37,960 bases of DNA from Muribaculaceae bacterium (GTDB lineage Bacteria > Bacteroidota > Bacteroidia > Bacteroidales > Muribaculaceae), in contig JAFUKL010000049.1 in NCBI GenBank assembly GCA_017473615.1, positions 1 to 37,960 of the forward strand. The letters are read 5' to 3'. This document shows positions 1 through 31,276 of this stretch, piece by piece. The notes below the pieces were generated by a model that worked only from the letters and a program-made list of their open reading frames with translations, did no database searches and was not told where the DNA came from. The translations under genes and the position numbers were made by a program. Every line of letters starts with the position of its first letter. Position 1 is the first letter of the stretch.

Positions 1-1368
1 CCATTCTTTAAATTTTTCTATAGCAATTTCATACCTTCCGTGATTACCATCTCCTGGCTGAAACGATATACCTACAACTCCTTGTGGTAAATGGTATTCT
101 TCTATAGATAAATCTTCCATATTGAGAAATACAAATATTTTATTTTTCTCCTTAGAGCTATTAATTTCATCCAGTAGTTGTAAATAGTTTCTATCTCCTA
201 TTTCCCAATTGTTATATTTTAAAAGAACTTCTGAGGTGTTCAAACCTGCTTTGTAAGCTACACAAGTAGTATCATTCGGAGTACCGATTGAAATACAATT
301 AGAAGATTTAACCAACTCCCACCACAAATATTTCGTTCTAAGAAACATGTTTTCTTTTATTAAAGAGGACCATGTTGCTCGTTGTTGAAGCTTTGGATAA
401 AGAATAAGAGCAGTCTCTTCTTGTCGCTTAGAACGCCCGAAACTACTTCCTTGTGAAAAACCACAGAAAGCACCTACACAAGCAGCGGCTGAAGCACAAA
501 CGAAAGCGACTTTAGCTGGTTTGGATCCTCCCTTTAGAAATTTCATATACTTTAGATACGAAAGATTCTTTTCCAATATAAACTTTGCACCTGTAAAGGT
601 GAATGAAGACAGAACTAAGTCCACATTTCCAACCTTAGGCTTTTGTGTAAATTCTTTAATATCGATGAGTATTGTATCATTCATAACATCATAAGTGGCA
701 TCCCATCCTCTGTATTCAAAATGGAGAATACTACCTTCAATGATTGTGTTATCTGCTAAAACAGAATCACTATCGATAGATGAGGTGAAATATCCCCATA
801 AAACACCTATCCCAAAAAACATTGTAAAGAAAAGAATTAGAGCTACCAAAACAATGCTAATTCCTTTTATCACCCTTAAAATTTTGCCTAACACACTTCG
901 GGTTTCATTCGCTTCTTCTATAAAATGTACCAACTTAGTGATGGAAGCATCAGGGAAATCTGTGCTATATGGAACACTTTGAGATTTTACGATAATTTCA
1001 ATGTCACGAGCATTAAAGTTTTTATTTAATTCAACCATAATTGAAGAATCAGACAAAGATTCTATTTTATCGAATAAGACAGGTATGATCTTTTTCCCAA
1101 AAGATATTGCTGTTCTGATTTCTTCTAAGAACCAGTCCTCTTCTATATGTTCTTTCGCTTTAAAACAATCTTTGGTTACCAAAAGGACTACGCAATTTGA
1201 TGAAGCAATAGTACTTTTGATCTTGTCGTCAAATAGTTCTGGACCAATACTATGTTTATCCAAAAAAATGTCCTCTAAAGAATAGGCAGAATTATCAGCT
1301 ATGCTTTTACGAATAAAATCTGCATTAACAGAAGATGATTTTCTATAACTTATAAATATATTATACAT
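1..1368 (-). CDS. TIR-domain membrane protein with PDZ-like C-terminal part (partial, runs off left edge)
   Basis: An open frame of 456 codons runs from ATG at 1368 to base 1 with no stop, so the C-terminus lies outside the window. Residues 1-100 form a TIR domain: it opens with NIFISYRKS and has DWFLEEI followed by ISFGKKIIPVLFD. This aligns with the SARM1 motif DWVHKEI...SCGKNIVPIID and places a candidate catalytic glutamate at E83, four residues after W79. A transmembrane helix follows at about 169-194, and a second hydrophobic stretch at 286-305. Residues 365-420 (VAYKAGLNTSEVLLKYNNWEIGD) resemble a PDZ fold. TIR domains with this Glu are often NAD+ hydrolases or make cyclic ADP-ribose isomers; enzymatic activity here is inferred. 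The start lies 32 bp after the stop of the upstream DUF4062-like gene, so the two are probably co-transcribed. Confidence 0.85.
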   Translation of the reverse strand, partial: MYNIFISYRKSSSVNADFIRKSIADNSAYSLEDIFLDKHSIGPELFDDKIKSTIASSNCVVLLVTKDCFKAKEHIEEDWFLEEIRTAISFGKKIIPVLFDKIESLSDSSIMVELNKNFNARDIEIIVKSQSVPYSTDFPDASITKLVHFIEEANETRSVLGKILRVIKGISIVLVALILFFTMFFGIGVLWGYFTSSIDSDSVLADNTIIEGSILHFEYRGWDATYDVMNDTILIDIKEFTQKPKVGNVDLVLSSFTFTGAKFILEKNLSYLKYMKFLKGGSKPAKVAFVCASAAACVGAFCGFSQGSSFGRSKRQEETALILYPKLQQRATWSSLIKENMFLRTKYLWWELVKSSNCISIGTPNDTTCVAYKAGLNTSEVLLKYNNWEIGDRNYLQLLDEINSSKEKNKIFVFLNMEDLSIEEYHLPQGVVGISFQPGDGNHGRYEIAIEKFKEW

Positions 1369-1400
1369 ATGAATTCGCAATCAATATATACTGAATTGTT

Positions 1401-3896
1401 TTAAATTTTACTTGCAGAATGCTCTATTATAAATCTATCAAAGAACTCTAAGGAAATATTTAATTTGACCAATTCGTTATTGTAATCCTTTATGATCTGT
1501 TCCAATATGTTACACTTATCTCCTTGTTTTGCAAAAAAGTGCGATGCTTCATCAAAAGCTCCTTGACACAAAAGAGAAGAAATATAGTTGCAATATTTAT
1601 TGGGACAATCATAATCTTGAATTGCCAATGATTTTTCAGCAAACATTTGAGCCTGAATATATTTATTCTGTAAAATATAACAATACGACAAACCGTCATA
1701 TATATTACCAATATGGTTTAAGTCCTTTAATTCTATAAAATAATCTAAAGCTTTTTTATAATAATTCTCAGCATGTTCTAATGCATCACCACTATAAAAA
1801 ATATCCATGTAACATAAAGCAATACTTTGAAAACAACATGCCTTATCTCTTTCTCCTCTATACAACTGAGACAGACTGATGAATAATTCGATTGCTTGTG
1901 ATATATTACCTGTTTTTTTTAGAAGAGTAGCTTTTACAAAGAGTAGGTTATAAAAGTCTATACTTCTATCATTGTAATTACGGTAATCAGTATATTGTTG
2001 CACAATGTCATTACAGAACGCCAAATCTTCATCATCAAACTCTTCATCTTTTTTTGCTAATGCATAAAGTGAGAACAGTTTAATTCCTGTTTGAAAGTAA
2101 AAAGCATCTAATGCCAAATATGGAGTGTAATAATAATCTATTAAATCATTAATTTCATCCTTGTATTTGTAAATGTTGGGGAAATCGTTCCAAATAATCC
2201 AATATTTATATTCTAAATACAAATTTAAATTGAGATTGTTTTGATTGATGAAATCAGGTTTGAAAATGTTATCAAGCTCATTAATGCATGTGTCTTCATG
2301 ACTTTTCTCTCTATTTCTAAAAACAGTCCTTTTTTGCATCAAAATAACAGCTTTAAACCACTGGTCATTATTAAAGAAATAATGCTCTGCACAATCAATC
2401 CATTTTATTGTGTCTAGATCATGGCTTATTTCAGAACTTATTTGACACAATTGTATACAACATTGTTTAGCACTCTCTATAATCTTTAATGAAGGTTCAT
2501 TAATCTTTTCAAAGCTATCCCACGCTTTAATATACAATTCATATCTTGATGTGAGTTGGCTGTTGTAAAAAAACAACAGATTAGCTGCAAACAGGTTTAT
2601 TTTAAAATCGTCTTCTGGTAACAAACAGATTCTTTCAATTGTTAAAGTATTTAAAATGCTGTTAATTTGAGCAAGAGCATCTGCCCCAGAATATTTGAAT
2701 ATATTAAATTGCAGTGATTCTATATTATCGTATACATAATCAATAACTGCCTGTTTATATTCAGAGTGTTTAAGGGGAAGTTCCTCTATATCCTCTTCTT
2801 TATATATAAAATATTCATATTCAGCTTTTTGAATGGAGTCAAGTGCTTTAATATGCTTTTCTATTTTACCATTCAGCCAATAATAATTTAAGAGATTAAC
2901 AATTACACGTTCTTTACGAGCTTGTTCTTCTGAATTTGGGTCAAGTCCAGTATTAAGAAGATTAATAAAATTGTGTCCAAATGTACTGCCTTTTCTAATA
3001 AGCCAATGCTCATGTACAATATAGATAAAACCACTACCATCCAACATATTATTCTGCATCAAAGCGGCTAATAACTTGTTGTGAAAAATGATAGACAACA
3101 CTTTATAGGTTTGGTAACAATCAAAATACTTATCTCCCAAATTATGAGATGTGTTATCTATCAGTTCTTTAGTTAGAATATCCGAATTATCTAATACTTC
3201 TTTATTGGCAAATATCCAAAAAGATTCAGAAGGAATCCCTTCATTCAACGCATGTGTAATTACCTCTATTTCTCGCACAATTTCATTGTCAAGAAGTGAA
3301 ACAAATGCATTGATGCATTGATAATTTAAATTAGAAATAACTATTCCATTACCTTGATCCCTTAATCGACGAATTATATTGCTAAGAACCGCAGATTCTA
3401 AATTATTAACAGTAGGAATTCTCAAATAAAAATTATTGCGGGGAGATAAATCAATTGTAGTATCTTCAATATCATCCAATACAGATGACATTGAATCATC
3501 AATTAAACTGCATAGTTTCTCCACTATCGCATCACCAAATGTGAGAATTTGGAAATTTGATTGTAAATTAGTAAGAATAAGAGGATGATGTATATCTGAT
3601 GAATATACGATTATTCTCATTTTAATATTCTTATATTTATCTGCTTCAATAATTTCGTGCTTAGTAAATTCCCCTAGCGTTTTACCTATAATGGAAATAA
3701 AAATGTCTGAATTTTGGATTTGACGATCATAGACTGGTTGGCTATTTTGATATTCATCCTCACATAGAAACAGTCGAACCATATATCCTTTAGCAGAGGA
3801 AAGCTCATTGAGTCTTCTTACATAGTCACCAATGAAAATACGTTCTTTTTCAAATTCTTCAATTGATGATGCAATAAAAATGTTAATTACTTTCAT
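1401..3896 (-). CDS. DUF4062/TIR-like N-terminal domain protein with long helical TPR-like tail
   Basis: This 831-residue protein opens with INIFIASSIEEFEKER, the start typical of DUF4062-type domains found at the N-terminus of many STAND/NACHT-like proteins. The first 100 residues follow a TIR-like pattern: an acidic CEDEY, then QNSDIFISIIG, then GEFTKHEIIEA. E81 sits where the catalytic glutamate of TIR NADases sits, though this is not proof of activity. I see no P-loop. From about residue 350 the protein is all helical, and residues about 640-800 show TPR-like repeats (GNISQAIELFISLSQLYRG, DALEHAENYYKKALDYF, YIQAQMFAEKSLAI). It probably senses or scaffolds through the helical part and signals through the N-terminal domain. 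It sits between the Ala-rich small peptide gene and the TIR-TM gene. Confidence 0.75.
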   Translation of the reverse strand: MKVINIFIASSIEEFEKERIFIGDYVRRLNELSSAKGYMVRLFLCEDEYQNSQPVYDRQIQNSDIFISIIGKTLGEFTKHEIIEADKYKNIKMRIIVYSSDIHHPLILTNLQSNFQILTFGDAIVEKLCSLIDDSMSSVLDDIEDTTIDLSPRNNFYLRIPTVNNLESAVLSNIIRRLRDQGNGIVISNLNYQCINAFVSLLDNEIVREIEVITHALNEGIPSESFWIFANKEVLDNSDILTKELIDNTSHNLGDKYFDCYQTYKVLSIIFHNKLLAALMQNNMLDGSGFIYIVHEHWLIRKGSTFGHNFINLLNTGLDPNSEEQARKERVIVNLLNYYWLNGKIEKHIKALDSIQKAEYEYFIYKEEDIEELPLKHSEYKQAVIDYVYDNIESLQFNIFKYSGADALAQINSILNTLTIERICLLPEDDFKINLFAANLLFFYNSQLTSRYELYIKAWDSFEKINEPSLKIIESAKQCCIQLCQISSEISHDLDTIKWIDCAEHYFFNNDQWFKAVILMQKRTVFRNREKSHEDTCINELDNIFKPDFINQNNLNLNLYLEYKYWIIWNDFPNIYKYKDEINDLIDYYYTPYLALDAFYFQTGIKLFSLYALAKKDEEFDDEDLAFCNDIVQQYTDYRNYNDRSIDFYNLLFVKATLLKKTGNISQAIELFISLSQLYRGERDKACCFQSIALCYMDIFYSGDALEHAENYYKKALDYFIELKDLNHIGNIYDGLSYCYILQNKYIQAQMFAEKSLAIQDYDCPNKYCNYISSLLCQGAFDEASHFFAKQGDKCNILEQIIKDYNNELVKLNISLEFFDRFIIEHSASKI

Positions 3897-3975
3897 ATGT
3901 GTAGAATGATAATTTTTCGAGAAATGGAAGAGACTAAATTATTAATCTCTTCCTGCCCATCAAAAGAGAATAAAG

Positions 3976-4149
3976 TTATTTTCCTTTTTCTTTATTCTTT
4001 TTCTTTTTGATTAGGTAACCAATGCCCACAGCAGCAGCTACGCCAACAGCTGCCACCGCAACAGCAGGAGCAGCAGCAATAGCACTGACTGTAGCAGCCC
4101 CAGCAGCAGCTAACTGTTGGGGATTACCAGTAAAATTTGGATTGGACAT
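3976..4149 (-). CDS. 57-residue Ala-rich hydrophobic peptide with Lys-rich tail
   Basis: The frame from ATG at 4149 to TAA at 3976 encodes 57 residues. It has a polar N-terminus (MSNPNFTGNPQQ), a continuous Ala/Val/Gly hydrophobic stretch at residues 13-46, then a basic end (KKKKNKEKGK). This is a single-pass membrane peptide pattern like that of small toxins, holins or membrane anchors. No family is recognised. The gene lies 79 bp before the DUF4062-like gene on the same strand and about 300 bp after the C39-like peptidase gene. Being a peptidase substrate or a membrane effector are both possible, but neither is shown; there is no obvious GG-type leader cleavage site. The composition is far from random AT-rich sequence, which supports it being a real gene. 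Confidence 0.6.
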   Translation of the reverse strand: MSNPNFTGNPQQLAAAGAATVSAIAAAPAVAVAAVGVAAAVGIGYLIKKKKNKEKGK

Positions 4150-4446
4150 AAATAAAAGATTTAGACATTATAGGAGCTCTAACAATTAAATATTTTCCCT
4201 TTCGTTGTGGCTCCATATTTACAAAAAGGGAACTATTAAAAAATACAAACAAAACAAGTCAATATATCTGTGATTTTTTGGTGTCCTTTTTCAACATATA
4301 CTTGAAGTTCTCCATTTACCAACAACTCATTCTCTATCATCCATTCTTCATTCTTGGCAAGGATTTGAAGAAGAATTAAATAAGATACGTCTATGTATAT
4401 CTGTTATTTTTTATAATTTTAAGCAATAACAAGAAACCTTATGCTC
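4150..4446 (-). other. 297-bp intergenic stretch with hairpin and possible short frame
   Basis: This gap in the leftward gene row holds a hairpin with an 8-bp stem (TTCCCTTT at 4195-4202, AAAGGGAA at 4225-4232, 22-nt loop) without a clear U-run. It also holds a short minus-strand frame at 4236-4340 (34 codons from ATG; the frame stays open 21 codons further upstream but without another ATG). The translated piece has a protein-like composition (ENELLVNGELQVYVEKG), so it may be a tiny gene or a remnant. I see no -7 element of the TAnnTTTG type pointing left. The gap may therefore be a leader, a processing site, or a promoter for an alternative sigma factor. Confidence 0.35.
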
Positions 4447-5370
4447 TCACGTTATTTCTTCCAGGAAGTCATGTCTCATACAGAATAATAACTCCTGAGT
4501 ATATTCTTTAAGCAAACCTTTATAATAGGTAACGTCTTTGTGGTTGGTTTTGGATATACGTTCCCATATAGTGCGTCGCTCAGCATCCCTGTATGCCTCA
4601 GTAACTCTTTCCCTTTCATCTTCGGTTAATTCTACATCCGATAAATCTATTGGTTTCGGAATATAGGTTTTCATATTGTTAGAAGTTATAGTTACTAAAT
4701 AATTTTTCGAATCATTCCAAGCATCTTTAAATTGCTCTATTGGATATATGTCTTCGGCATTTGAAGAATTTGGGTCAAAGAGGGTTATAGTACTACTCTT
4801 TTCATCAAGTGACAATATGACAACTGTATGATCCGGTATTTGACCTATCAAAATATCTTCTATCTTTTCTTCCGTTCTATTTCCCAGCAATTCTCCTCCA
4901 TCAACTGCTACTATTACGCATTCATTCTCATTAAGGGCATTTGCGATATTATCAATCGTTGCTTTATATCGACGAGTTACAACAAGACCTTTACTCTCCA
5001 AATGTCGTCCGACATTATGAAGTGCCGTTCCATTTTCTTTCATCCAACCATTCTGAATAGCATTTTGAAGGAGTTGCTCCTCGTCAAATTCTATATCAAG
5101 CCGGCGAAGGATATATTTCTCACACTCCAAACTGCAATAATTTTCCTCATTGCAGGTTGCTGCCATTGCGGTCATAGGAATAAACTCACACTCTTGGGGA
5201 GCCATGCCAAATTCAGCATCTACTGATTGAGAAATATGGAGTAATTCTCTCAATTCAGCATCCTCGGTAAGAGCACCAAATATCTCTTTGCTCTCCTGCG
5301 CAGTCGCATTGCCATCAAGGAATGCTGCCAACACCTCTGCCGAGATGTTATTTACTGATTTCTTTTTCAT
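4447..5370 (-). CDS. Anti-sigma-like N-terminus fused to a C39-like cysteine peptidase domain
   Basis: This is a 307-residue protein. Residues 1-55 (ISAEVLAAFLDGNATAQESK...LTEDAELRELL) resemble the N-terminal helices of Bacteroidetes anti-sigma proteins. Residues about 75-230 look like a C39/papain-like peptidase: C79 is spaced from a following IL as in C39-like proteins (YCSLECEKYIL); H181 lies in DHTVVILSLDE; D199/N201 lie in TLFDPN; and a closing FKDAWNDSKNYLVTI is typical of the family. C83 is an alternative nucleophile. A helical C-terminus of about 65 residues follows. The start overlaps the end of the sigma gene by 23 bp, so the two are translationally coupled, as in sigma/anti-sigma pairs. 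A plausible role is a regulator that controls the sigma factor and changes state by proteolysis. Activity is inferred. Confidence 0.7.
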   Translation of the reverse strand: MKKKSVNNISAEVLAAFLDGNATAQESKEIFGALTEDAELRELLHISQSVDAEFGMAPQECEFIPMTAMAATCNEENYCSLECEKYILRRLDIEFDEEQLLQNAIQNGWMKENGTALHNVGRHLESKGLVVTRRYKATIDNIANALNENECVIVAVDGGELLGNRTEEKIEDILIGQIPDHTVVILSLDEKSSTITLFDPNSSNAEDIYPIEQFKDAWNDSKNYLVTITSNNMKTYIPKPIDLSDVELTEDERERVTEAYRDAERRTIWERISKTNHKDVTYYKGLLKEYTQELLFCMRHDFLEEIT

Positions 5371-5920
5371 ATTTCTCTACTTCTTTCAGTGCTATTTCAG
5401 TCAATGCGGCAATAGCACGCTTTTTAATGTTATACAAATTATCCACATTGGTACATAGTTCTTGTGCCACAACCTTGGGCTCAGCTTCTTGCAAAACCAA
5501 TCTTCTGATGACATAGACGTAGCGTCTGTTTGGCATTAATGAAAATAGGTGCTCTATATCCATCTTCGCCGTCATCCTTTTTTCTCCATCTACAGTCTCG
5601 TTTTGCACAACACTGTCTAAAAGAGCATCTTTAGACTCATTATCTATCATGCTATCACGTTTTGCAATGAAGTAGCGAATGGCGATTACTTTCATCCACT
5701 GATAGATTGTGCTGCGACCTTGAAACTGTCTCAATCTATATGCATCGTTCTCCATAAGGTGCAAGTAGAATTCATTTACGAACTCATCATAATCAACCTC
5801 GTATGAAAATACATAGCGAATAATGCTCGAGAAAAGCGGACGGCAGTTCCCAAAGAAGAACTGCTGAGTCACTCGCTCATTTCGAGCGATCAAGGCGTCA
5901 ATTATTTGTTGGTCAGTCAT
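5348..5920 (-). CDS. RNA polymerase sigma factor, sigma-70 (ECF-like) family
   Basis: This 190-residue protein has the layout of a small group IV-type sigma factor. Region 2 covers roughly residues 20-90 and includes YDEFVNEFYLHLMEN and the -10-binding helix FQGRSTIYQWMKVIAIRYFI. A linker follows, then region 4 at about 120-180 (LFSLMPNRRYVYVIRRLVLQEAEPKVVAQEL...NLYNIKKRAIAAL). It starts 13 bp after the coiled-coil membrane protein gene and overlaps the anti-sigma-like/peptidase gene by 23 bp. It would direct polymerase to its own promoter set. Candidate targets are the genes to the left, since the gap at 4150-4446 lacks a recognisable housekeeping promoter; that link is inference. Finding a sigma factor inside an apparent defence-type operon is unusual. 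Confidence 0.85.
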   Translation of the reverse strand: MTDQQIIDALIARNERVTQQFFFGNCRPLFSSIIRYVFSYEVDYDEFVNEFYLHLMENDAYRLRQFQGRSTIYQWMKVIAIRYFIAKRDSMIDNESKDALLDSVVQNETVDGEKRMTAKMDIEHLFSLMPNRRYVYVIRRLVLQEAEPKVVAQELCTNVDNLYNIKKRAIAALTEIALKEVEKYEKEISK

Positions 5921-5933
5921 TTTTTAATATCAC

Positions 5934-6653
5934 TTAACTCAGATAGATTGAATTGACATTTTTTGATTCTGATACTTTCAAATTTTCCTTATTCTTAATC
6001 TCTTGTTCGTGATTGTATTTCATTTCAAGTTTTACCTTTTCGATTGACTCGAATTCTTGTTGTCTGAGCTCAAGTTCTTTTTTCTTATATTCTTCTAATT
6101 CCTTCTTTTTCTTTATATCTGTAAGTTTCCACATGTAAAGTTCCTTTAGGAGTTCCCATTGTTTATCACGAAACTTTGCATTAGCTTCTTTCTCTTGTAA
6201 TAATGTTTTAAATAATAATACAAACAGACCTGTAAGTGTGGTAATTACAATTATCATAAAACTGATATAAAAAAGCATTTCACTTGTGTGATCTATTTTT
6301 GTTATTTCTTTATCATATATAGGTAGTTCCTCAGAGAGGACTTTATACTCGATATTGCCATCTTTCTGTTGGATAACTATCGTTTGTATGGGGCTTGAAG
6401 ATTGCGTAACAGTAATAGTATCCTTATCTACAACTGCATTATTTTTGCTTGATAGATTATTTCCACAGAAAAATAGTGCCGATATCACAAGGACTACTAT
6501 AATACACGATATAAATAGAATTTCTCGGATAACATAGTGCCATTTTGTACAAGGCAGATTCTTTAACGAATCTTCTAATTTGAGGATAGCATCGTCGTGC
6601 TTTTTTGTGGAAGATTCTTTTTCTGAGTTCTTGTCTGATTCTGTACGTCCCAT
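5934..6653 (-). CDS. Two-TM membrane protein with charged C-terminal coiled coil
   Basis: This 239-residue protein is not recognised as a known family. It has a charged cytoplasmic N-terminus, a TM helix at about 44-64 (REILFISCIIVVLVISALFF), an extracytoplasmic loop of about 60 residues, a second TM at about 127-149 (LFYISFMIIVITTLTGLFVLLF), and a long Lys/Glu-rich coiled coil from about 150 to 225 (DIKKKKELEEYKKKELELRQQ). The start lies only 4 bp after the stop of the channel gene, which implies tight co-translation. It may be an accessory subunit of the channel or a membrane platform for the sigma/anti-sigma pair; both are inference from position only. Confidence 0.7.
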   Translation of the reverse strand: MGRTESDKNSEKESSTKKHDDAILKLEDSLKNLPCTKWHYVIREILFISCIIVVLVISALFFCGNNLSSKNNAVVDKDTITVTQSSSPIQTIVIQQKDGNIEYKVLSEELPIYDKEITKIDHTSEMLFYISFMIIVITTLTGLFVLLFKTLLQEKEANAKFRDKQWELLKELYMWKLTDIKKKKELEEYKKKELELRQQEFESIEKVKLEMKYNHEQEIKNKENLKVSESKNVNSIYLS

Positions 6654-6657
6654 ATAG

Positions 6658-8715
6658 CTATATTTTTATATTGTTTAACATTCTAATTATATCCGGTAAT
6701 TTCTTTATGATATTTCTATCTAATTGCTTATCATCTTCTGTTAAATTTTCATAAGGCTTGATAAGATGATGAGCAAACATATTCTTTTTAAGTTTATTGG
6801 TATCAATACTATCCGTTTTCTCTTTATCACTCAATGGTCTATAGCCCATAAGTAGTTTTTCCATGTTCCATCTACAATGCTCGGTATATGCCATCTTTTC
6901 TATCTGTTCATCAGAGAGGGTAGCTGTTTTGATACTTTCTTCATTGTGACCTATAGAGCGTAATTTGAATTCGATGGAGTCCGCCAGATATAGATTTGAC
7001 CATTTATTGGAAGTGGATAAAGTCTTCCACTTTGCCAAGAGTTCATCTATAGTAGGAATACTTGCCGGAAGCGTCTTATTATACGTAAAGTAAAATTCGT
7101 ATATATAGTTAAATGCCATTGCCAAATGATTGGAATAGTAATCAATAGCAAAGCTATCGTCAATCATTCCAAAAGGATATATATTTGCGTATTTCTTGTT
7201 TTTGGCATCAGAATCTTTGGCTGCATTACCAAAAGATTTGATAAGTGCTCCAGTCTTTTCTTGTCTTACAAATACGTTAACCACCTTGTCTCGATCTATT
7301 ACTTCCCAAGGTTTACTCATATCGTTTCTTCCACGCAAGTACACCTCTTCAGGTAAATACATCGCCATTCCAAAACTTTGCGATGGATTATGTAGACATA
7401 TCGCTATAGTGGTTATTGCATCATTGTCAGACATTTCTTTCTTAATCCATTCTCTAACATATTTCGACTCAACACGTCCTTTTATAAACTCGAATTGCAC
7501 ATCAAGGAAATGGGTTGTTTCTGTCGGATTATTCACTTGATATGTTGATTCGAATTTACTAAAACTCTTTTCTGACAGATCGGCATATTTGATCGGAGCA
7601 ATATCAAAATAGCCGGTATGCCTACCCATAAAAAAGTTCATCTCGGTATCAGCTTTATCGTCTATAAATGTGATTCTTGTACGGTTATTACCTGTATTCT
7701 CATCAAAGTTAGGAAAATGCATCAAGTGTGCAGCCTCTTTTGCAAGAGCTATTCCCATACGATTCATTCCTACAATGATTAAATGAACATGTTTTGAACT
7801 ATTTTCTTTAATACCATCGTGGTCTAATTCAGGGTATTCAATCTTGCTATTACCTATTCCATAATTACTATTTGTAAGCAGTCTATTTGCCCACCTCTTA
7901 TAGAAATTATATGGTTTAAACTCAAAATATTTCTTCCATTCCTCACTAATATCATTGAGTTGTAAGGCTGCGTATGATGCCTCGTTTTCAAACCATATAG
8001 TCAAAGATTTACACTCTGTAACACCTTTTTTATTATGAATCATTACTAACGTTTCAAACGTATGCATGTTTTCTGCATCATGGTCACTTTGTTCACGCTC
8101 ACCTATAATGAAGATTTCTCGGGCATTATAGGTATAGAGTAATTCCAATTCTTCCACAGAAAGTCGAGGTGCATGGACCAGAATCACTTGTTTCAGTGCC
8201 TTACGAGGTAACTTTGAAAGCAAATCATTCCGAACGTCTTCTACAGAAGCAGAAGTCTGCAACACGAACTTTAACTTAGTATATTTCCGATTCGATATTA
8301 ATTCTGAGATGATTGAAGGAACAATCGTGTCATAGCCAATGATGACAACATGATTTTTCAGATTGTAGTGAATGTGTCCATCTTTAATCAAATCGACCTT
8401 CTGACTGATGACGTTCGTGATAACAGAAACTATCAAGCCTGAGAACAAAATGGTTCCTAAACACTCTGTAATCAACAGTAATAAGTTGTTCCAAGTGTAT
8501 CCTTTCGGTTTATCTATAATACTATTTGAATCTAAAAATAGTCGTATAGCTTCCCATATTCCTAATTCTAATTTCGGATCTGAATTCGGCGTTTTTAAAC
8601 AAAGATAAATACCGATACAAAGCATAAATACACCGAGGTTGATTATTGTGAAAAATAATATTTGCCACCATAATCCACCTCCCAACAATTTATTAATCCA
8701 ATATTTAATATTCAT
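6658..8715 (-). CDS. CASTOR/POLLUX-like ion channel with C-terminal ryanodine-receptor (RyR) domain
   Basis: A 685-residue membrane protein. TM1 is at about 16-40 and TM2 at about 80-103. Between them, WEAIRLFLDSNSIID resembles the pore loop of plant CASTOR/POLLUX (DMI1) channels, whose filter region reads ADSGNHAD. After TM2, SVITNVISQKVDLIKDG and then NHVVIIGYD match the CASTOR/POLLUX junction (GLVSDAISEKVDSLRKG...NHTLILGW) leading into the first RCK/TrkA-N-like Rossmann domain at about 120-260. A second Rossmann unit starts near 309 (HVHLIIVGMNRMGIALAKEA). The C-terminal part, about 600-680, has the RyR-domain signature (YTEHCRWNMEKLLMGYRPLSD and, later, NLTEDDKQLDRNIIKKLPDII). It is predicted to be a ligand-gated cation channel, with the soluble domains reading a small molecule. 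The gene follows upxY by 12 bp and precedes the coiled-coil membrane gene by 4 bp. Confidence 0.8.
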   Translation of the reverse strand: MNIKYWINKLLGGGLWWQILFFTIINLGVFMLCIGIYLCLKTPNSDPKLELGIWEAIRLFLDSNSIIDKPKGYTWNNLLLLITECLGTILFSGLIVSVITNVISQKVDLIKDGHIHYNLKNHVVIIGYDTIVPSIISELISNRKYTKLKFVLQTSASVEDVRNDLLSKLPRKALKQVILVHAPRLSVEELELLYTYNAREIFIIGEREQSDHDAENMHTFETLVMIHNKKGVTECKSLTIWFENEASYAALQLNDISEEWKKYFEFKPYNFYKRWANRLLTNSNYGIGNSKIEYPELDHDGIKENSSKHVHLIIVGMNRMGIALAKEAAHLMHFPNFDENTGNNRTRITFIDDKADTEMNFFMGRHTGYFDIAPIKYADLSEKSFSKFESTYQVNNPTETTHFLDVQFEFIKGRVESKYVREWIKKEMSDNDAITTIAICLHNPSQSFGMAMYLPEEVYLRGRNDMSKPWEVIDRDKVVNVFVRQEKTGALIKSFGNAAKDSDAKNKKYANIYPFGMIDDSFAIDYYSNHLAMAFNYIYEFYFTYNKTLPASIPTIDELLAKWKTLSTSNKWSNLYLADSIEFKLRSIGHNEESIKTATLSDEQIEKMAYTEHCRWNMEKLLMGYRPLSDKEKTDSIDTNKLKKNMFAHHLIKPYENLTEDDKQLDRNIIKKLPDIIRMLNNIKI

Positions 8716-8727
8716 AAATGTTTTACA

Positions 8728-9300
8728 TTATATCAATTCTAAATTAATTTTCTCCACACTTACACAAGCATATCCCAATCCATTTATTCTGATGGCGACG
8801 ATAGGTTTATTCTCTTCGATATAACTTAATTCTCCTTCAAGTCCCTTCATTGAACCTCTTACAAGGCGAACCCTATCTCCAACTTTAAGATTCTCTACGA
8901 TTGAAACTTTTGCATCGGCACTATGCAAAAGAAACTTTAACTTTTCGATTTGTTCATCAGGTATAGGAGTAGCTAATTCTTTCGAACCCGGATAAGTGAT
9001 AAACTTAAGAATGAATGATAGTCTGCGAAATTCGTCTTCCTCACCTTGGGCAAGACGGACAAAAACAACCATAGGAATGACGACCCGATCGATCTTCTTT
9101 TTTCGGTCACTCCATTGATGTACTTCTTGCTGAACTGGTACGTAATTTGCAATACCCATCTTGTCGAGTTTTATAGCAACTTTTTTCTCACAATTCATCT
9201 GAACAAGAGCTGCCACCCAACGTTTTGGATACGCTTCGCGGTCGTTTGTCCCATTGACAAACGAATCACTATTTTGACAAATCGTACTCTCTACTCTCAT
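8728..9300 (-). CDS. UpxY-like NusG paralogue (specialised transcription antiterminator)
   Basis: This 190-residue protein has a NusG N-terminal (NGN) domain at about 27-125 (RWVAALVQMNCEKKVAIKLDK, IANYVPVQQEVHQWSDRKKK, VVIPMVVFVRL) and a KOW domain at about 140-188 (LKVGDRVRLVRGSMKGLEGEL). Length and context fit the UpxY group, which in Bacteroides capsule loci binds polymerase early in one long operon and stops premature termination. It is the first gene after the invertible segment, as upxY is in capsule loci, but capsule genes are missing here. It is therefore likely to be the dedicated antiterminator for the leftward payload operon. The 5' leader is about 290 nt if transcription starts in the invertible segment. 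Confidence 0.88.
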   Translation of the reverse strand: MRVESTICQNSDSFVNGTNDREAYPKRWVAALVQMNCEKKVAIKLDKMGIANYVPVQQEVHQWSDRKKKIDRVVIPMVVFVRLAQGEEDEFRRLSFILKFITYPGSKELATPIPDEQIEKLKFLLHSADAKVSIVENLKVGDRVRLVRGSMKGLEGELSYIEENKPIVAIRINGLGYACVSVEKINLELI

Positions 9301-9325: not shown

Positions 9326-9343
9326 GTTCTACAAAAGAACCAT
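9326..9343. repeat. Left 18-bp inverted repeat of invertible segment
   Basis: GTTCTACAAAAGAACCAT is the exact reverse complement of 9609-9626. The core is itself a dyad, GTTC-N7-GAAC, which is the layout expected of a tyrosine recombinase crossover site: two short arms around a 7-bp spacer. It lies 25 bp upstream of the upxY-like start. Confidence 0.92.
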
Positions 9344-9608
9344 AAATGTTTTATAAGTTCTTGATTTTAAAGTATTATACAGGACGTTCGATTGATATTT
9401 TAACAACATTATATATCGTATAAATTTGATTTGTAAAAAGTTACAAATAGATAGCAAAACTCTATAATGCCTAATAAATTAAAGAATAATTCTATAAATC
9501 ATTGAATATAAATTTATTCGAAATAGTTTTCGGATTTCAGTCGATAGAAAAAATAATCATCGTTTCCCACATTTATTAAGCTATTTTGAGTATTTTTGCA
9601 AATGTATA
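9344..9608. promoter_or_regulatory. 265-bp putative invertible promoter segment
   Basis: An AT-rich non-coding segment lies between perfect 18-bp inverted repeats, directly beside a tyrosine recombinase gene and in front of a upxY-like gene. This is the classic arrangement of Bacteroides phase-variable promoters. On the minus strand, TACATTTGC at 9606-9598 matches the Bacteroidetes -7 element and points at upxY. On the plus strand, TAAATTTGA at 9421-9429 (TTTT 19 nt upstream) and TATTTTTGC at 9591-9599 (no good upstream box) point the other way. Which orientation is ON is therefore not certain; see the separate promoter entry. Confidence 0.8.
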
Positions 9609-9629
9609 ATGGTTCTTTTGTAGAACAAT
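9598..9629 (-). promoter_or_regulatory. Candidate leftward promoter with the right inverted repeat as its spacer
   Basis: On the minus strand, ATTG (9629-9626) is followed after exactly 19 nt by TACATTTGC (9606-9598). The same nTTG-N19/20-TAnnTTTG pattern occurs at other genes in this window (tRNA-Lys, tRNA-Arg, metY, frd, ZIP). The -7 element lies inside the invertible segment, while all but the last base of the -33 box lies outside it, so inversion would separate the two and leave ATGTTTTAT at the -7 position. If this is the true promoter, the window shows the ON state for the leftward operon. Confidence 0.5.
9609..9626. repeat. Right 18-bp inverted repeat of invertible segment
   Basis: ATGGTTCTTTTGTAGAAC is the perfect reverse complement of 9326-9343. 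It ends 2 bp before the stop codon of the tyrosine recombinase gene at 9629, so the switch and its likely invertase form one cassette. Confidence 0.92.
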
Positions 9630-10822
9630 CACCCCAAACAACCTATAATCCCTTTGTTTGCATCGTCAATCACTGAGTTTTCTAACATTGTTAGATAAAT
9701 CTGCGTAGTCTGCTCAGAGGTATGTCCCATACCTGCACTGATGACAGAAATTGGCACATTATGATTTCTAGCAGCAGTAGCCCAACTGTGGCGAGAGGTG
9801 TATGATGTCAATTTGCAACCGGCAGGCAACATCTTTGATAATCGTTTCAATTGTCTATTATGGTTATTGATTGCTATCTGATACTCTTCATATGCCTCCT
9901 TTGTTTCCGTTGAAGTCAAAATAGGGAAAACATAAGGCGATAATGCCGATGAATATCTGTCAATTATCCGCTGGATACTAGGCTCTATACGCACACTCAA
10001 TAATTGCCCCGTTTTGCGGCGGGCATAGCATATTACTCCGTTCTGGATATTCTCTTTTTTCAGATAGGCAATATCCACGAAAGCCATTCCACGGGTGCAA
10101 TAGCTAAAAATGAATATATCTCTTGCAAGTGCGAGTGGCGTTCCTTCTGCCAACTTGAGTTTATACAACTGTGATATTACTGATTCCGATACAGCACGCT
10201 TACGGGTACGATCAATGCCTGTATAAACCTCTATGAATGGGTGTTGTTGCTCGATGAGTTTTTGTCTAACCGCCTTGTTATAGACAGCTCTCAAAACCCG
10301 CATATAGAACGACACAGAGTTGCGCACCAATCCTCTCTGAACGAGGAATGCATTATACTTGGTTATCACTTGTTCAGTCAAGGCTGATAATGGTAGGCGT
10401 ACATCGCCTAAAAACTCGCCAAAACTGCTCATCGTCTTCTCGTAATTCTTGGCTGTTCCGAGGCGGTTAGTAGCCCGTAATTGCTCGACTTGAGTACGCA
10501 TATAATCAAGCACAAGTATATGGCTCTGGGGCGACTTGTAACGACTGATTACATCCTCTACGGAGTAGTCCATTCCGCTACTATCGAGGTCAGCAATAAC
10601 CCTTCGTAACAACGCCAAATCGCTATCGATGCGGTTTTGAATCATCAAGCGATTGGGTGCAGCAGAAACCAACCGCCCCTCGTCTGCATCCCAATTCGCT
10701 GGTTGTACACGGAGTTTTGTTGTAATCTGTTGTGTTTTACGATTGTGGGTGATTTGATAATAGATAACACCTGCTTTGCCCTCTACTGAAGATGGGCGTA
10801 GTTTTACTTTTATTGTTGCCAT
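9629..10822 (-). CDS. Tyrosine site-specific recombinase, probable DNA invertase
   Basis: This 397-residue protein has an Arm-type N-terminal domain (KVKLRPSSVEGKAGVIYYQITHNRKTQQI), a SAM-like core-binding domain at about 100-200, and a C-terminal catalytic domain. The first catalytic arginine is in FSYCTRGMAF, the HxxR-type box is SYTSRHSWATAARN, and GMGHTSEQTTQIY carries the tyrosine nucleophile Y376. This is the Bacteroidales integrase type that includes both transposon integrases and the phase-variation invertases. Its position 2 bp from an inverted repeat flanking a promoter-like segment argues for the invertase role on that segment. An integrase role for a mobile element cannot be excluded, because the left end of the block is outside the window. 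Confidence 0.9.
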   Translation of the reverse strand: MATIKVKLRPSSVEGKAGVIYYQITHNRKTQQITTKLRVQPANWDADEGRLVSAAPNRLMIQNRIDSDLALLRRVIADLDSSGMDYSVEDVISRYKSPQSHILVLDYMRTQVEQLRATNRLGTAKNYEKTMSSFGEFLGDVRLPLSALTEQVITKYNAFLVQRGLVRNSVSFYMRVLRAVYNKAVRQKLIEQQHPFIEVYTGIDRTRKRAVSESVISQLYKLKLAEGTPLALARDIFIFSYCTRGMAFVDIAYLKKENIQNGVICYARRKTGQLLSVRIEPSIQRIIDRYSSALSPYVFPILTSTETKEAYEEYQIAINNHNRQLKRLSKMLPAGCKLTSYTSRHSWATAARNHNVPISVISAGMGHTSEQTTQIYLTMLENSVIDDANKGIIGCLG

Positions 10823-11003: not shown

Positions 11004-11036
11004 ATTGGTGATAGAGATAATGTATATTATTTTTGT
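11004..11036 (+). promoter_or_regulatory. Promoter of the ZIP transporter gene
   Basis: ATTG at 11004-11007 is followed after 20 nt by TATTTTTGT at 11028-11036, the Bacteroidetes -33/-7 pattern. Transcription would begin near 11042, which rules out the TTG at 11033 as a start codon and supports ATG at 11057. Confidence 0.7.
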
Positions 11037-11056
11037 GTGAAATAAAGAATATTGCA

Positions 11057-11836
11057 ATGGAAGAATTATTTTTAGGATTGTCTTTACCTGTAATAGGTAC
11101 AACGGTAGGTGCAGCTTTTGTGTTTTTCATCAAAGATCATATACCTACTTATGTGCAGAAAGCCCTGCTTGGCTTTGCATCGGGAGTGATGATTGCTGCT
11201 TCGGTGTGGTCGTTGCTTATCCCAAGTATGGATATGACCGGCGTTGATGGAATAATGTCGGTTGTACCTGCCGCAGTGGGTTTTTTGTTTGGTATGGGGT
11301 TCCTGCTTATGCTTGATATGCTTGTTCCGCATTTACATATTGGCGGCAAGTCGCCTGAAGGTGTGAAATCCGGTATGTCACGTACCACAATGCTTACATT
11401 TGCGGTAGCATTGCATAATTTGCCTGAGGGTATGGCTGTGGGTGTTGTATATGCCGGGATGCTCGCCGGCGGTGGTGACGTATCGTTGAGTGCAGCACTT
11501 GCATTGTCGGTGGGTATTGCCATTCAGAATATTCCGGAAGGAGCAATCGTGTCTATGCCTATATATGCCGAAAACCGGAGTAAATGGAAGTCTTTTGGGA
11601 TAGGGACACTTACAGGATTGGTTGAACCGGTAGGCGCAGTAACGGTCATTTTGTTGGCGTCACTTGTAACCTCGGTATTACCATTCTTACTTGCTTTCGC
11701 TGCAGGAGCAATGGTGTATGTGGTGATTGAAGAGCTTATACCCGAAGCATCCCAAGGCGAACACTCCAATATCAGCACGATAGGTTTTGCCCTTGGTTTT
11801 ACTTTAATGATGACCCTCGATGTTGTCTTAGGTTAA
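11057..11836 (+). CDS. ZIP family metal transporter (ZupT-like)
   Basis: A 259-residue integral membrane protein with about eight TM helices. TM4 and TM5 carry the metal-binding motifs of the ZIP family: HNLPEGMAVGVVYAG and, later, IGIAIQNIPEGAIVSMP. The family takes up zinc and other divalent metals. The His-containing loop before TM4 is short (HLHIGG). I chose ATG 11057 over the upstream in-frame TTG (11033) because the TTG overlaps the -7 promoter element. The gene is convergent with the SulP gene, with only 7 bp between the stops, so the two transcripts probably overlap at their ends. It is the first core-like gene next to the accessory block. Confidence 0.9.
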   Translation: MEELFLGLSLPVIGTTVGAAFVFFIKDHIPTYVQKALLGFASGVMIAASVWSLLIPSMDMTGVDGIMSVVPAAVGFLFGMGFLLMLDMLVPHLHIGGKSPEGVKSGMSRTTMLTFAVALHNLPEGMAVGVVYAGMLAGGGDVSLSAALALSVGIAIQNIPEGAIVSMPIYAENRSKWKSFGIGTLTGLVEPVGAVTVILLASLVTSVLPFLLAFAAGAMVYVVIEELIPEASQGEHSNISTIGFALGFTLMMTLDVVLG

Positions 11837-11843
11837 AGTACTG

Positions 11844-13556
11844 TTACCATGTTATTTCTTGCATGTCGTTCTTGTTTTGAACCAAATTGTTTGCCATGTC
11901 TACCGCTTTTGTGATATGATCGCAGATGTGGTCTTCGCCGATAAGCTTATCTATGTGAGCATTCATAAGCACCTCTCTTACGCTTGGCACAACACCTGAA
12001 AGTACTACATGAATTCCGTCATTCTTGGATGAATTTATCAGGATTTCCAAATTGTGAATACCGGTGGAGTCGATAAACGGCACGCGTCGCATACGTATGA
12101 TTCTTACGAGTGGTTTATCTCCCATTGCACGCATCATGTCCTCAAATTTATTGGCTACACCGAAAAAGAACGGTCCGTCTATTTCGTATATTTCCACTCC
12201 ATGATTGACATGCAGAATTTCGTGAGTAGTGTTCTCTGTACCTTCCGCAAGGTCTATCTGGTCACTGAACACTTTGATTTGGGTGTTCTCCATGACGCGA
12301 CGCAGAAATAAAAGAAGAGCAAGGAGCAAGCCTATTTCGATAGCTATAGTAAGATCAAATACCACAGTAAGTACAAATGTTACTATCAGCACGGCTATAT
12401 CCGATTTCGGATTTTGGAAAATACCTATCACAGTGCGCCATCCACTCATATTATATGCCACCATCACCAGTACTCCGGCAAGGCATGCCATAGGCACATA
12501 GTTGATAAGGGGCATAAGGAACAGGAATATAAGCAAAAGTACCACAGCATGTATTATACCTGCCACCGGAGTGCGTCCGCCATTGGTTATATTAGTCATT
12601 GTGCGGGCTATAGCTCCTGTAACCGGAATACCACCGAAGAATGGTACAGCAACGTTGGCTATACCTTGTCCTATAAGTTCTGTGTTGTTACGTGTTCTGT
12701 TTCCGGTGGCTCCATCGGCTACGGTTGCCGAAAGCAATGACTCGATTGCTCCAAGGATAGCTATAGTAAACGCTGATGGCAGCAGTACATTTATCGTTGT
12801 CATGTTGATACCAAGCCAATGTGGAGTTGGTATTTCGGCGGGAAGGCGTCCGAAACGATCGCCTATGGTTTCAATACCGGTCAATCCGAAAAACTCGCGT
12901 GCCGCATATACCACCACCGTCATTACGATGATTGCAATAAGTGCTCCGGGCAATTTCTTGGAGATATAGGGTGTCAAGGCTATTATTGCGATTGTAATCA
13001 GTCCGACAATAAGGGTCGGGCAGTTTATAGTATCCATATTTTGCAGATATACCGCCCATTTACCTATGAAGTCACCCGGAACTTTATCGATTTGCAGTCC
13101 GAATAAATCCACAATTTGAGTGGAAAAGATAGTAAGCGCTATACCACTTGTAAATCCCACAACGATGGGGTAAGGGATAAACTTGATAATAGTTCCGAGC
13201 TTGAATACACCTAAAAGAATGAGTATTAATCCCGCCAAAAAAGTTGCAATAGCAAGCCCTTGAAGACCGTAAAGTTGGATAATGTTATACACAATAACAA
13301 TAAAAGCACCGGTAGGACCGCCTATCTGTACGCTGTTTCCGCCTAATGCCGAAACAAGGAATCCTCCTATAATGGCAGTAATGAGACCAACCGATGGTGT
13401 TACGCCACTTGCTATACCGAAAGCAATTGCCAATGGCAGAGCTACAATACCTACAACGACTCCTGCGATTAAATCGCTACGAAATTTTGCCCAAGAGTAA
13501 TTTTTCAGTTCGCTTAGAGCTTTGGGCTTAAATTCAACTTTTCCGCTGAAATTCAT
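11844..13556 (-). CDS. SulP family anion transporter with STAS domain
   Basis: A 570-residue transporter. The membrane part (residues about 20-420) starts with SDLIAGVVVGIVALPLAIAFG, the SulP signature, and includes PTGAFIVIVYN and GGIPVTGAIARTMTNI. A C-terminal STAS domain spans about 450-555 (VEIYEIDGPFFFGVANKFEDM, VPFIDSTGIHNLEILI). Bacterial SulP proteins carry sulfate, bicarbonate, dicarboxylates or other anions; the substrate cannot be told from sequence. The length is normal for the family. The gene stands alone, with its own consensus promoter about 125 bp upstream. Confidence 0.92.
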   Translation of the reverse strand: MNFSGKVEFKPKALSELKNYSWAKFRSDLIAGVVVGIVALPLAIAFGIASGVTPSVGLITAIIGGFLVSALGGNSVQIGGPTGAFIVIVYNIIQLYGLQGLAIATFLAGLILILLGVFKLGTIIKFIPYPIVVGFTSGIALTIFSTQIVDLFGLQIDKVPGDFIGKWAVYLQNMDTINCPTLIVGLITIAIIALTPYISKKLPGALIAIIVMTVVVYAAREFFGLTGIETIGDRFGRLPAEIPTPHWLGINMTTINVLLPSAFTIAILGAIESLLSATVADGATGNRTRNNTELIGQGIANVAVPFFGGIPVTGAIARTMTNITNGGRTPVAGIIHAVVLLLIFLFLMPLINYVPMACLAGVLVMVAYNMSGWRTVIGIFQNPKSDIAVLIVTFVLTVVFDLTIAIEIGLLLALLLFLRRVMENTQIKVFSDQIDLAEGTENTTHEILHVNHGVEIYEIDGPFFFGVANKFEDMMRAMGDKPLVRIIRMRRVPFIDSTGIHNLEILINSSKNDGIHVVLSGVVPSVREVLMNAHIDKLIGEDHICDHITKAVDMANNLVQNKNDMQEITW

Positions 13557-13680
13557 AAAACAATCCGTTTTTACTTTAAAAGCAGTTTAAATTTATCCAA
13601 ATGTATTTTTTAAGTGAGATTATTTTTAATCGAAATAAATTTAAACAAATTCTTAAAACCAATCTTTTTCTTTTGAGGGC

Positions 13681-13713
13681 GCAAAGTTAAGGATTATTTA
13701 CAAGTTTTCCAAA
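13681..13713 (-). promoter_or_regulatory. Consensus promoter of the SulP gene
   Basis: On the minus strand, TTTG (13713-13710), 20 nt, then TAACTTTGC (13689-13681): a perfect Bacteroidetes promoter. The predicted 5' leader is about 118 nt. The leader contains an AT-rich stretch (13617-13660) weakly like the 71-bp upstream element; this may be chance. Confidence 0.75.
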
Positions 13714-13745
13714 ATTTTCATAACTTCATGAAGACTAAAAATAAA

Positions 13746-13784
13746 ATAAGCCTAATTAGATGCAATTGAACTCATTAGGCTTAT
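13746..13784 (-). terminator. Terminator of the RNase R gene
   Basis: An 11-bp perfect stem (ATAAGCCTAAT at 13746-13756 with ATTAGGCTTAT at 13774-13784) followed on the minus strand by a T-rich tract. It lies 12 bp after the rnr stop codon. Confidence 0.85.
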
Positions 13785-13796
13785 CATCGATATTCA

Positions 13797-16139: not shown

Positions 16140-16166
16140 ACTAATCTAATTAAGTTGTTGTCACTA

Positions 16167-16174
16167 CAAATATA
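16167..16174 (-). promoter_or_regulatory. -7 element of the RNase R promoter
   Basis: TATATTTG on the minus strand lies 27 nt upstream of the rnr start. No clear TTTG is seen at the -33 distance. Confidence 0.5.
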
Positions 16175-16210
16175 ACATTATTTTCAGTTGAAAACAGCAT
16201 GTAAGCCATC

Positions 16211-16254
16211 TTTTTTAAAAATAAATCCGGCTACACATCTCGTGCCACCGGATT
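16211..16254 (-). terminator. Hairpin terminator of the candidate small RNA
   Basis: AATCCGG (minus strand, 16254-16248) pairs with CCGGATT (16230-16224) around a 17-nt loop, followed by TTATTTTTAAAA on the minus strand. The plus-strand side lacks a T tract, so it works leftward. Confidence 0.5.
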
Positions 16255-16335
16255 CCTAACCTATGATTCACTTATTTGTTGTTGCTTTTCTAATGTTGTT
16301 ATAATTGTGTCTTTCGGGTATCGTATGAATTATTA
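16211..16335 (-). ncRNA. Candidate small RNA of about 125 nt upstream of rnr
   Basis: The stretch 16140-16627 has no gene on this strand, yet it holds a complete transcription unit. A promoter at 16373-16342 is followed by about 85 nt of non-coding sequence and a hairpin (AATCCGG/CCGGATT at 16254-16224) with a downstream T-rich tract on the minus strand. The unit ends before the separate rnr promoter at 16174. It could also be a terminated leader or attenuator of rnr. I do not recognise an RNA family. Confidence 0.4.
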
Positions 16336-16341
16336 ATTTGT

Positions 16342-16373
16342 GCAAAGATACACTATATTTCTAAAAAATCAAC
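16342..16373 (-). promoter_or_regulatory. Promoter of the candidate small RNA
   Basis: On the minus strand, GTTG (16373-16370), 19 nt, then TATCTTTGC (16350-16342). The match equals that of the tRNA and metY promoters in this window. Confidence 0.6.
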
Positions 16374-16516
16374 CATTTTGCTTACAGCAATTAACTATTA
16401 TTATACATTGGAATCATAAATTAAACAAACGAAAGCTTCGATACGCCGTTAGATGACAAAATGAAAGTAACGAATGACTTTTTTAATAGGCTACATAATT
16501 ATTTGAAAAATAGTTG

Positions 16517-16525
16517 TAATTTTGT
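16517..16525 (+). promoter_or_regulatory. -7 element upstream of the LTA-synthase-like gene
   Basis: TAATTTTGT matches the -7 consensus. Transcription would start near 16531, which makes the in-frame TTG at 16532 an unlikely start and supports ATG at 16628, with a leader of about 100 nt. Confidence 0.55.
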
Positions 16526-16627
16526 GCTGTTTTGTATAGCGTTGGTCAATTTTTAAGTCTCAATTGTTACCTGACGCGAAAAATAAGTATTTATAAATGG
16601 GATAATGAAATAAAAAAGGGGAATTCA

Positions 16628-18466: not shown

Positions 18467-18472
18467 ATAGAG

Positions 18473-18522
18473 AAGTGTCTCCCCAAAGTTTATCATTAAA
18501 CTTTTTTTTGGGGGGAACACTT
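18473..18522 (+). terminator. Strong terminator after the LTA-synthase-like gene
   Basis: A long imperfect hairpin: AAGTGT, CCCCAAAGTTTA, tetraloop-like TCAT, TAAACTT, TTTTGGGG, ACACTT. It starts 6 bp after the stop codon. It is nearly symmetric and may also stop leftward transcription. Confidence 0.75.
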
Positions 18523-18556
18523 CGTCTCATTAGTGCATGTTTGTGATTCTTTTCAA

Positions 18557-18581: not shown

Positions 18582-18582
18582 C

Positions 18583-31275: not shown

Positions 31276-31276
31276 G

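Follow-up and report, generated by a model that had tools for sequence, protein, structure and literature searches.

What might an operon do that joins a TIR protein, a ryanodine-receptor (RyR)-like channel and a sigma factor? The question is raised by a 37,960-nucleotide contig (JAFUKL010000049.1; contig C44) of a Muribaculaceae metagenome-assembled genome (MAG; 2.0 Mb, 78% complete), the whole of which is called the window here. Open reading frames (ORFs) and profile scans placed all genes of the operon on the minus strand, running leftward from position 9300 in the order upxY, channel-like gene, two-transmembrane (2-TM) protein gene, sigma factor gene, C39-like gene, peptide gene, DUF4062/TPR gene and TIR-TM gene. 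Base 1 is the contig end, so the TIR gene is truncated there and the operon stops at the contig edge. We give an even chance to the reading that the locus is a phase-variable, modular signalling island of Bacteroidales in which ADP-ribose (ADPR)-type signals made by TIR proteins would be read by RyR domains, most likely against phage; we infer the anti-phage function from the comparisons below.

We surveyed 297 Muribaculaceae genomes, that of the window included, for linkage of the signalling genes. RyR (PF02026) was found in 60 and TIR_2 in 81 of these genomes. The 87 RyR matches clustered into 66 loci, and a TIR gene was present within 10 kb at at least 28 of them, compared with approximately 1 expected (0.016 per locus, assuming 2.6-Mb genomes). 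The window's TIR was added to the match list by hand; without the window the count is at least 27 of 65. The TIR-linked RyR loci span 25 genomes and 11 genera. Channel homologues were found in 30 of the 297 genomes (own genome included), with a channel called in 30 of the 31 loci surveyed. A TIR gene was within 10 kb of 11 of these 30 channel genes, at 0–54 bp in six cases, and a small RyR gene was within 10 kb of 11. Sigma and C39 genes accompanied the channel at only 2 of the 30 loci, which indicates that the channel need not accompany the sigma block, whereas TIR and RyR genes do recur beside it.

The C39 core was then aligned and used to scan the GTDB species genomes (84,980; a pattern-based, non-exhaustive scan), which gave 53 loci. 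All carry Bacteroidales or Bacteroidia titles except L186, which is labelled Clostridiales and is probably mislabelled (loci are denoted by L numbers). The C39 gene was called in 47 of the 53, with L161, L176, L177, L192, L193 and L194 left out. The sigma gene lies directly upstream of the C39 gene in 41 of the 47, and the two genes overlap in 34 of these 41; overlapping genes are common for sigma/anti-sigma pairs. A channel, or BIG, which hhalign relates to it remotely (probability 93.8), was present within four genes upstream at 24 of the 47 loci, a count that leaves out L151 (a 48-aa piece at a contig edge) and L175 (a small RyR protein). The stretches analysed contained a TIR gene at 31 of the 47 loci, a small RyR gene at 14 and a tail-like protein gene at 11 (weak matches in four: L146, L155, L159 and L162). 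Where at least 9.5 kb was available on the right, TIR genes were present at 22 of 30 loci. By these comparisons, the hub of the block is an ECF-like (extracytoplasmic function) sigma gene followed by the gene of a C39-like, anti-sigma-like protein. The C39 and family surveys overlap, several genomes (e.g. L148 and L189) being in both, and the locus profiles were built from family loci.

Among the eight genes downstream of C39, the types that recur across 43 loci are M48-type peptidases at 20 loci, proteins of 85 aa at 16 and of 168 aa at 15 (the latter weakly matching a zinc ribbon), small RyR proteins at 11 and PrsW-type proteins at 7. The Pfam scan covered three proteins of the M48 type and one of every other type except small RyR. 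Regulated proteolysis is a plausible theme of the block, because PrsW-type genes recur and the PrsW protein of Bacillus targets an anti-sigma factor.

The first-pass annotation of the sequence had placed the RyR domain on the channel. Among relatives the peptidase is the more constant carrier: a C-terminal RyR domain was found in 46 of the 47 C39 genes (partial in L151), and the remaining gene is cut by a contig end. PF02026 matched above its cut-off inside the C39 frames of 12 family genomes, and the scores reached 112.6 bits in L189 and 106.6 bits in L184. Against known structures, the C39-RyR profile matched RyR3 R12 (9l90; 2.9e-54) and a bacterial "putative ryanodine receptor" (3nrt; 4.2e-45). 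Within this domain, all of 39 sequences keep the first His and the Trp, and at least 90% keep the Asp. In the alignment with the profile, RyR3 H877, W880 and H902 show the spacing of H75, W78 and H100 of the phage protein RyDEP (see below), and Trp880 aligns with the conserved Trp. The catalytic Cys79 and His181 of the C39 domain are invariant in 12 sequences including that of the window, and in 39 relatives; the third catalytic residue is variable (Asp, Asn or other). The N-terminal ~50 residues resemble an anti-sigma factor by eye, and profiles gave no support for this likeness.

In the window, the sigma factor (190 aa; 5348–5920, minus strand) matched sigma70-ECF (TIGR02937; E 1.7e-7) with 31.1 bits, under the cut-off of 42.9. 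Its gene overlaps by 23 bp with that of the C39-peptidase-like, anti-sigma-like protein (307 aa; 4447–5370, minus strand), whose C39 match (E 0.001; 19.4 bits) is below the Pfam cut-off of 22, as are those of L189 and L184. Neither a Pfam scan nor alignment with relatives revealed an RyR domain in the window C39 protein. The protein follows its relatives up to SDVEL and then becomes the C-terminus of a separate tail protein. At the DNA level, the sequence upstream of the junction region (4617–4634, minus strand) matches the C39 genes of L044 and L052, the sequence downstream matches the ~150-aa tail gene of L044, and a short sequence is common to both. In L189, which is the same stretch as L044, a distance of 5.1 kb separates the C39 gene from the tail gene, and a TIR gene, two M48-type peptidase genes and four further genes lie between them. 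As judged from these alignments, the window C39 protein is a derived chimera that lost its RyR domain through an in-frame join, and a natural deletion is likelier than misassembly. The sole RyR match in the own genome is that of the channel, and the M48 protein of L189 gave no match there in a search run without a positive control. The tail protein (~150 aa, ending WERI..NH.DV.YYK.LL.EYT) also recurs near small RyR genes and TIR genes (L145 11122–11583, L189 16046–16489 and others), and no Pfam family was above cut-off in the two members scanned.

The channel-like protein (685 aa; 6658–8715, minus strand) has two TM segments (residues 19–37 and 78–96), an RCK-like region and a C-terminal RyR/R12-like domain (6697–6912, minus strand). 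The match of this domain to PF02026 (E 0.001; 18.3 bits) is under the cut-off of 27.4, and the assignment rests on residue conservation rather than on score: H613, W616, H649 and D666 are invariant in 22 aligned sequences (alignment A2). The same four residues parallel H75, W78, H100 and D117, the ligand residues of the phage protein RyDEP given in the available text of a 2026 preprint (PMC13232231), in order and motif; the His-Trp spacing is equal, and the linker before the second His is longer than in RyDEP. The channel profile gave marginal matches to DMI1 (E 0.016), CASTOR (0.12–0.14) and KCNT1 (0.17), and a Slo-like RCK match was above cut-off in one of six homologues scanned (L144) and below it in two more. 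The label CASTOR-RyR given to this protein in the first reading is thus marginal in its CASTOR part, and its RyR part is sub-cut-off yet invariant in the residue set. Canonical RyR domains are fused to channel homologues N-terminally in L168 (11980–14490) and C-terminally in L055 (1654–4038). A 1377-aa channel homologue in L050 (7062–11195) is fused to an FGE-sulfatase-type domain, which also occurs on linked TIR proteins.

The TIR-TM protein of the window (at least 460 aa, cut by the contig end; 1–1380, minus strand) matched TIR_2 with 29.9 bits against a cut-off of 28. It also matched the SARM1 TIR domain (E 1.3e-7), with DWFLEEI aligned with DWVHKEI. Conservation of the TIR catalytic residues had been named in advance as a point on which the proposal could fail; the catalytic Glu (Glu87 column) is kept in all 49 TIR domains compared, namely the 48, among 51 found, that have a profile E <1e-10, and that of the window. 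Extra domains on the linked TIR proteins include WD40, FGE, transglutaminase, Sel1 and SIR2, as well as Lcl_C below its cut-off, and the genes after C39 in relatives are often TIR genes again, of other architectures. Two of the TIR proteins adjoining channels are SIR2-TIR proteins and one (L041) is above the cut-off for ThsB_TIR. TIR genes lie 0–54 bp from channel homologues, with no sigma or C39 gene within 10 kb, in L041, L043, L048, L049, L054 and L056. Such TIR and channel pairs are a possible minimal two-gene system.

The first gene of the operon encodes an UpxY-family antiterminator (8728–9300, minus strand; NF033644, E 1.2e-38, 132.7 bits against a cut-off of 100). It is preceded by a probable invertible promoter segment (9326–9626) bounded by a perfect 18-bp inverted repeat (arms 9326–9343 and 9609–9626), for which we estimate a chance expectation of ~0.001 in 12 kb. 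Within the segment, TATTTTTG (9591–9598, plus strand), which we take to be a Bacteroidetes-type -7 element, faces away from the operon. When the segment was inverted in silico, AAGCTATTTTGAGTATTTTTGCAAATG stood before upxY. A similar sequence faces upxY in L052 and L146, in which the repeats are partly lost: L052 retains a single half-site, and L146 has an integrase and imperfect arms. The segment is directly adjoined by a gene for a tyrosine recombinase (9629–10822, minus strand; Phage_integrase and Arm-DNA-bind_5 above cut-off), probably the invertase. The integrase before the upxY gene of L146 is 84% identical to it over 250 aa, and L108 has a close integrase relative (E 9e-222) with a similar arm, GTTCCACGAAAGAAC. 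The segment is very probably invertible in the window because of the repeat, the adjoining integrase, the promoter orientation in L052 and L146 and the arm in L108. The operon as assembled is, by the predicted promoter, OFF, because this promoter points away from upxY. The phase variability proposed in the first-pass annotation agrees with the perfect repeat beside a tyrosine recombinase, but the promoter faces away in the assembly and the inversion is a deduction from sequence. In L106 (269–1739) and L108 (4759–6280), an own integrase and an inverted repeat precede diverged sigma/C39 or C39 operons, one of them with a dynamin-like gene. The idea that invertible promoters are general in the family was rejected: of the 47 loci, L190 alone shows a perfect repeat (13 bp or longer) within the 700 bases upstream of the operon, with 0.2 expected.

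The other products of the operon are an 831-aa protein with DUF4062 (TIR-like; 30.1 bits against a cut-off of 24.7) and a TPR_12 match slightly below its cut-off (28.9 against 30.1 bits) (1401–3896, minus strand), a 57-aa Ala/Val-rich hydrophobic peptide with one TM segment (residues 29–47 by hydropathy) and a Lys-rich end (3976–4149, minus strand), which is separated from the C39 gene by 297 bp, and a 239-aa protein with two TM segments by hydropathy and a coiled-coil-like appearance by eye (5934–6653, minus strand). The 831-aa and 239-aa proteins are variable components. A search of 2,440 ORFs from related loci at E 0.01 gave no homologue of these three products or of the C-terminal part of the TIR protein; the three thus lie outside the recurrent block. 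The gene set and order described in the first-pass annotation were found as stated, but the TIR gene is truncated, the C39 gene is chimeric and these four parts do not recur. Likewise, the co-occurrence that it proposed to look for was found across genera for the TIR, RyR, channel and sigma/C39 genes, but not for the three proteins outside the block. PADLOC gave only weak matches for the window proteins, to one TIR-SAVED and one CARF model. Elsewhere in the window there are two tRNA-Glu(ttc) genes (31276–31348 and 31693–31765), with starts 417 bp apart.

The distribution of the operon is patchy. Only 13 of 393 genomes of the order match, own genome included, some of them only with diverged forms. 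In two genomes of the same genus (L232 and L233) there is no operon at the corresponding place, and the genes found right of the integrase have other neighbours; the gene order right of the integrase (window 11033–27313) is rearranged compared with these two. Between the window and L148, upxY is 89% and the sigma factor 94% identical, whereas the channel between them is 29% identical. The patchy spread, empty sites, channel exchange and varied partner domains of the TIR proteins together resemble a conflict system. No confirmed match to the block was found in viral contigs with the C39 and channel alignments.

In the mechanism that we propose, an infection or stress cue would activate the TIR protein or proteins, which would turn NAD+ into an ADP-ribose-type signal (2'cADPR, 3'cADPR or a relative; cADPR, cyclic ADP-ribose). 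RyR domains would receive this signal. Its binding to the CASTOR/RCK-like channel would open or close an ion pore as an abortive membrane response; its binding to the C39-RyR protein of relatives would switch a cysteine-protease/anti-sigma module and free the sigma factor for a transcriptional branch. Since the window C39 protein lacks the RyR domain, only the channel branch should stay ligand-gated there. The DUF4062 protein might be a second, NAD-depleting executioner, and phase switching would keep the costly system off in most cells. In the sequence itself, exchangeable TIR-type genes follow a core of upxY, RyR channel, ECF-like sigma factor and C39. Gut Bacteroides TIR proteins make cADPR and v-cADPR-x in vitro, as stated in the available text of PMC9092222. 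Moreover, RyR/R12 proteins of phages either bind 2'cADPR and 3'cADPR or cleave them, according to the accessible part of PMC13232231, which gives outside support to the idea that an RyR domain may read a TIR product. In the part of PMC12627627 available, RyR3 R12 binds ADP and AMP-PCP with the adenine stacked on Trp880. The RyR domains may also take other adenine nucleotides as ligands, and the role of the system may lie in stress rather than in phage defence. More specifically, and only tentatively, we suggest that bacterial RyR domains could be host receptors of TIR-made cyclic ADP-ribose, so that one signal would open an RyR-bearing channel and would also release a sigma factor by way of an RyR-C39 anti-sigma protease, sometimes under phase variation.

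Several observations weigh against this proposal. The window C39 protein has no RyR sensor of the kind proposed, the RyR match of the window channel is below the Pfam cut-off, and this channel has LDSNS in place of the filter-like DPGN found in the majority of alignment A2. The RyDEP residues were matched by motif and spacing, without the RyDEP sequence; Thr stands at the position of H100 in the C39-RyR proteins of L044, L052 and L093, and RyR3 has Asn at the position of D117. Linkage is incomplete: 19 of 30 channel loci have no TIR gene within 10 kb, only two carry sigma and C39 genes, and of the 30 C39 loci that extend 9.5 kb or more to the right, 8 show no TIR gene in the stretch analysed. 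Few relatives have a perfect inverted repeat before the operon. No shared sigma promoter was found beyond control among gapped dyads and 9-mers in 172 intergenic regions, except for TTTGC-type 9-mers, which we rejected as a sigma promoter and took instead for a general Bacteroidetes box. Finally, the flanks in relatives showed no excess of defence genes: 62 PADLOC families were matched at 1e-5 compared with 99 in the control. The flank set comprised 127 random proteins (at most 3 per locus, excluding block genes and the accessory lengths of 290–294 and 165–170 aa), the control comprised 127 of 136 proteins from 20 arbitrary regions, and the counts are of families matched, not of distinct proteins.

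This absence of a defence-gene excess fits an alternative that we consider unlikely, in which the block is a self-regulating NAD/ADP-ribose stress sensor and not an anti-phage system: RyR would read ADPR, ATP or other adenine nucleotides, TIR NADases would set their level and the sigma factor would drive a stress regulon. A sigma branch is, to our knowledge, unusual in abortive defence, which points the same way. So does the binding of ADP and AMP-PCP by RyR3 R12 through Trp880 (PMC12627627, available part), the residue aligned with the conserved Trp here. The spread over 13 of 393 genomes and the empty places in two same-genus genomes are harder to reconcile with stress sensing, as are the exchange of the channel between the conserved upxY and sigma genes and the varied TIR partner domains, which resemble conflict systems.

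The window copy itself might be a decayed or misassembled, non-functional remnant that lost its RyR sensor and the genes up to the tail gene, an alternative that we regard as rather improbable. The RyR domain, present in 46 of 46 relatives with an uncut C39 gene (one partial), is absent in the window; the join falls in a short sequence common to both genes; the own genome has no other RyR match than the channel and no match to the L189 M48 protein (the search without positive control); and the promoter is OFF on an edge-truncated contig of a 78%-complete MAG. On the other hand, the fusion preserves the reading frame, all the genes remain open, sigma and upxY retain 94% and 89% identity to relatives, and the loss may alter function rather than destroy it. 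It is quite unlikely, in our estimate, that the operon combines two or more independent systems, namely an RyR-channel/sigma/C39 module and separate downstream DUF4062 (Swarozyc-like) and TIR-TM defence genes. In favour of such a composite, the loci searched gave no homologue of the 239-aa protein, the peptide, the DUF4062 protein or the tail of the TIR-TM protein, the 297-bp gap separates C39 from the peptide, and the window is a deletion derivative; but relatives again often have TIR genes of other architectures after C39, as expected of an exchangeable slot, and all these genes of the window are co-directional behind one promoter segment.

No paper describing the set of TIR, RyR and sigma/C39 genes, or RyR channels in bacterial defence, was found in a search whose coverage excludes most subscription papers, and we make no claim of priority. 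Under the proposal of TIR signals read by RyR domains, bacterial RyR proteins beside TIR genes would be likely receivers of the signals that phage RyR proteins bind or destroy, and the analysis names domains and residues for testing. If this is true, TIR signalling gains a channel effector and a sigma-factor branch, that is, a second-messenger-gated immunity with membrane and transcriptional outputs. It would also give the long-disputed cADPR-RyR link of animals a counterpart in prokaryotes, would bear on the kinship of the animal RyR ligand domain with a bacterial immune sensor and would suggest DNA inversion as a means of keeping a costly system mostly off.

Among known systems, the phase-variable upxY capsule loci of Bacteroides have a promoter between inverted repeats, UpxY as the first gene and a recombinase nearby. 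The window shares all three features, but signalling genes rather than polysaccharide genes follow its upxY. CASTOR/POLLUX/DMI1 and Slo-type RCK channels resemble the channel in having two TM segments followed by an RCK-like region, and the CASTOR filter AD265S(A)GNHA can be compared with the D-x-G-N filter-like segment in the majority of channel homologues. The present channel differs from these channels in its marginal sequence match, in the added RyR domain and, in the window copy, in the missing filter pattern.

EACC2-caspase systems, as described in the available part of PMC8195603, likewise have conflict operons that encode both a protease and an ECF sigma factor and whose domains are exchangeable; the protease there is a caspase and not C39, and that part of the paper notes no RyR or TIR receiver. 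Swarozyc, a portal-activated system whose DUF4062 is reported as an NADase in the accessible text of PMC13174449, shares this domain with the 831-aa protein, in which it scores above the Pfam cut-off; the TPR-like C-terminus and the multi-gene operon seen here are points of difference. RyDEP shares the PF02026 family and the His/Trp/His/Asp ligand set; according to the available text of PMC13232231 it is a phage counter-defence protein (glycosidase or sponge), whereas here bacterial operons carry the domain next to TIR genes, either by itself or as part of a channel or a protease-like protein. In Thoeris, which pairs the TIR protein ThsB with the cADPR-gated effector ThsA, a TIR protein with a catalytic Glu is likewise gene-linked to a putative receiver of ADPR-type signals, and among the TIR proteins here that of L041 matches ThsB_TIR and two are SIR2-TIR proteins. 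No ThsA-type effector (SIR2-SLOG or Macro-TM) was found in Pfam and PADLOC scans of nine window proteins, up to the contig end. The putative receiver here is instead an RyR domain, borne by an RCK/2-TM channel and by a C39/anti-sigma protein, and the block further differs from Thoeris in its sigma branch and its invertible promoter.

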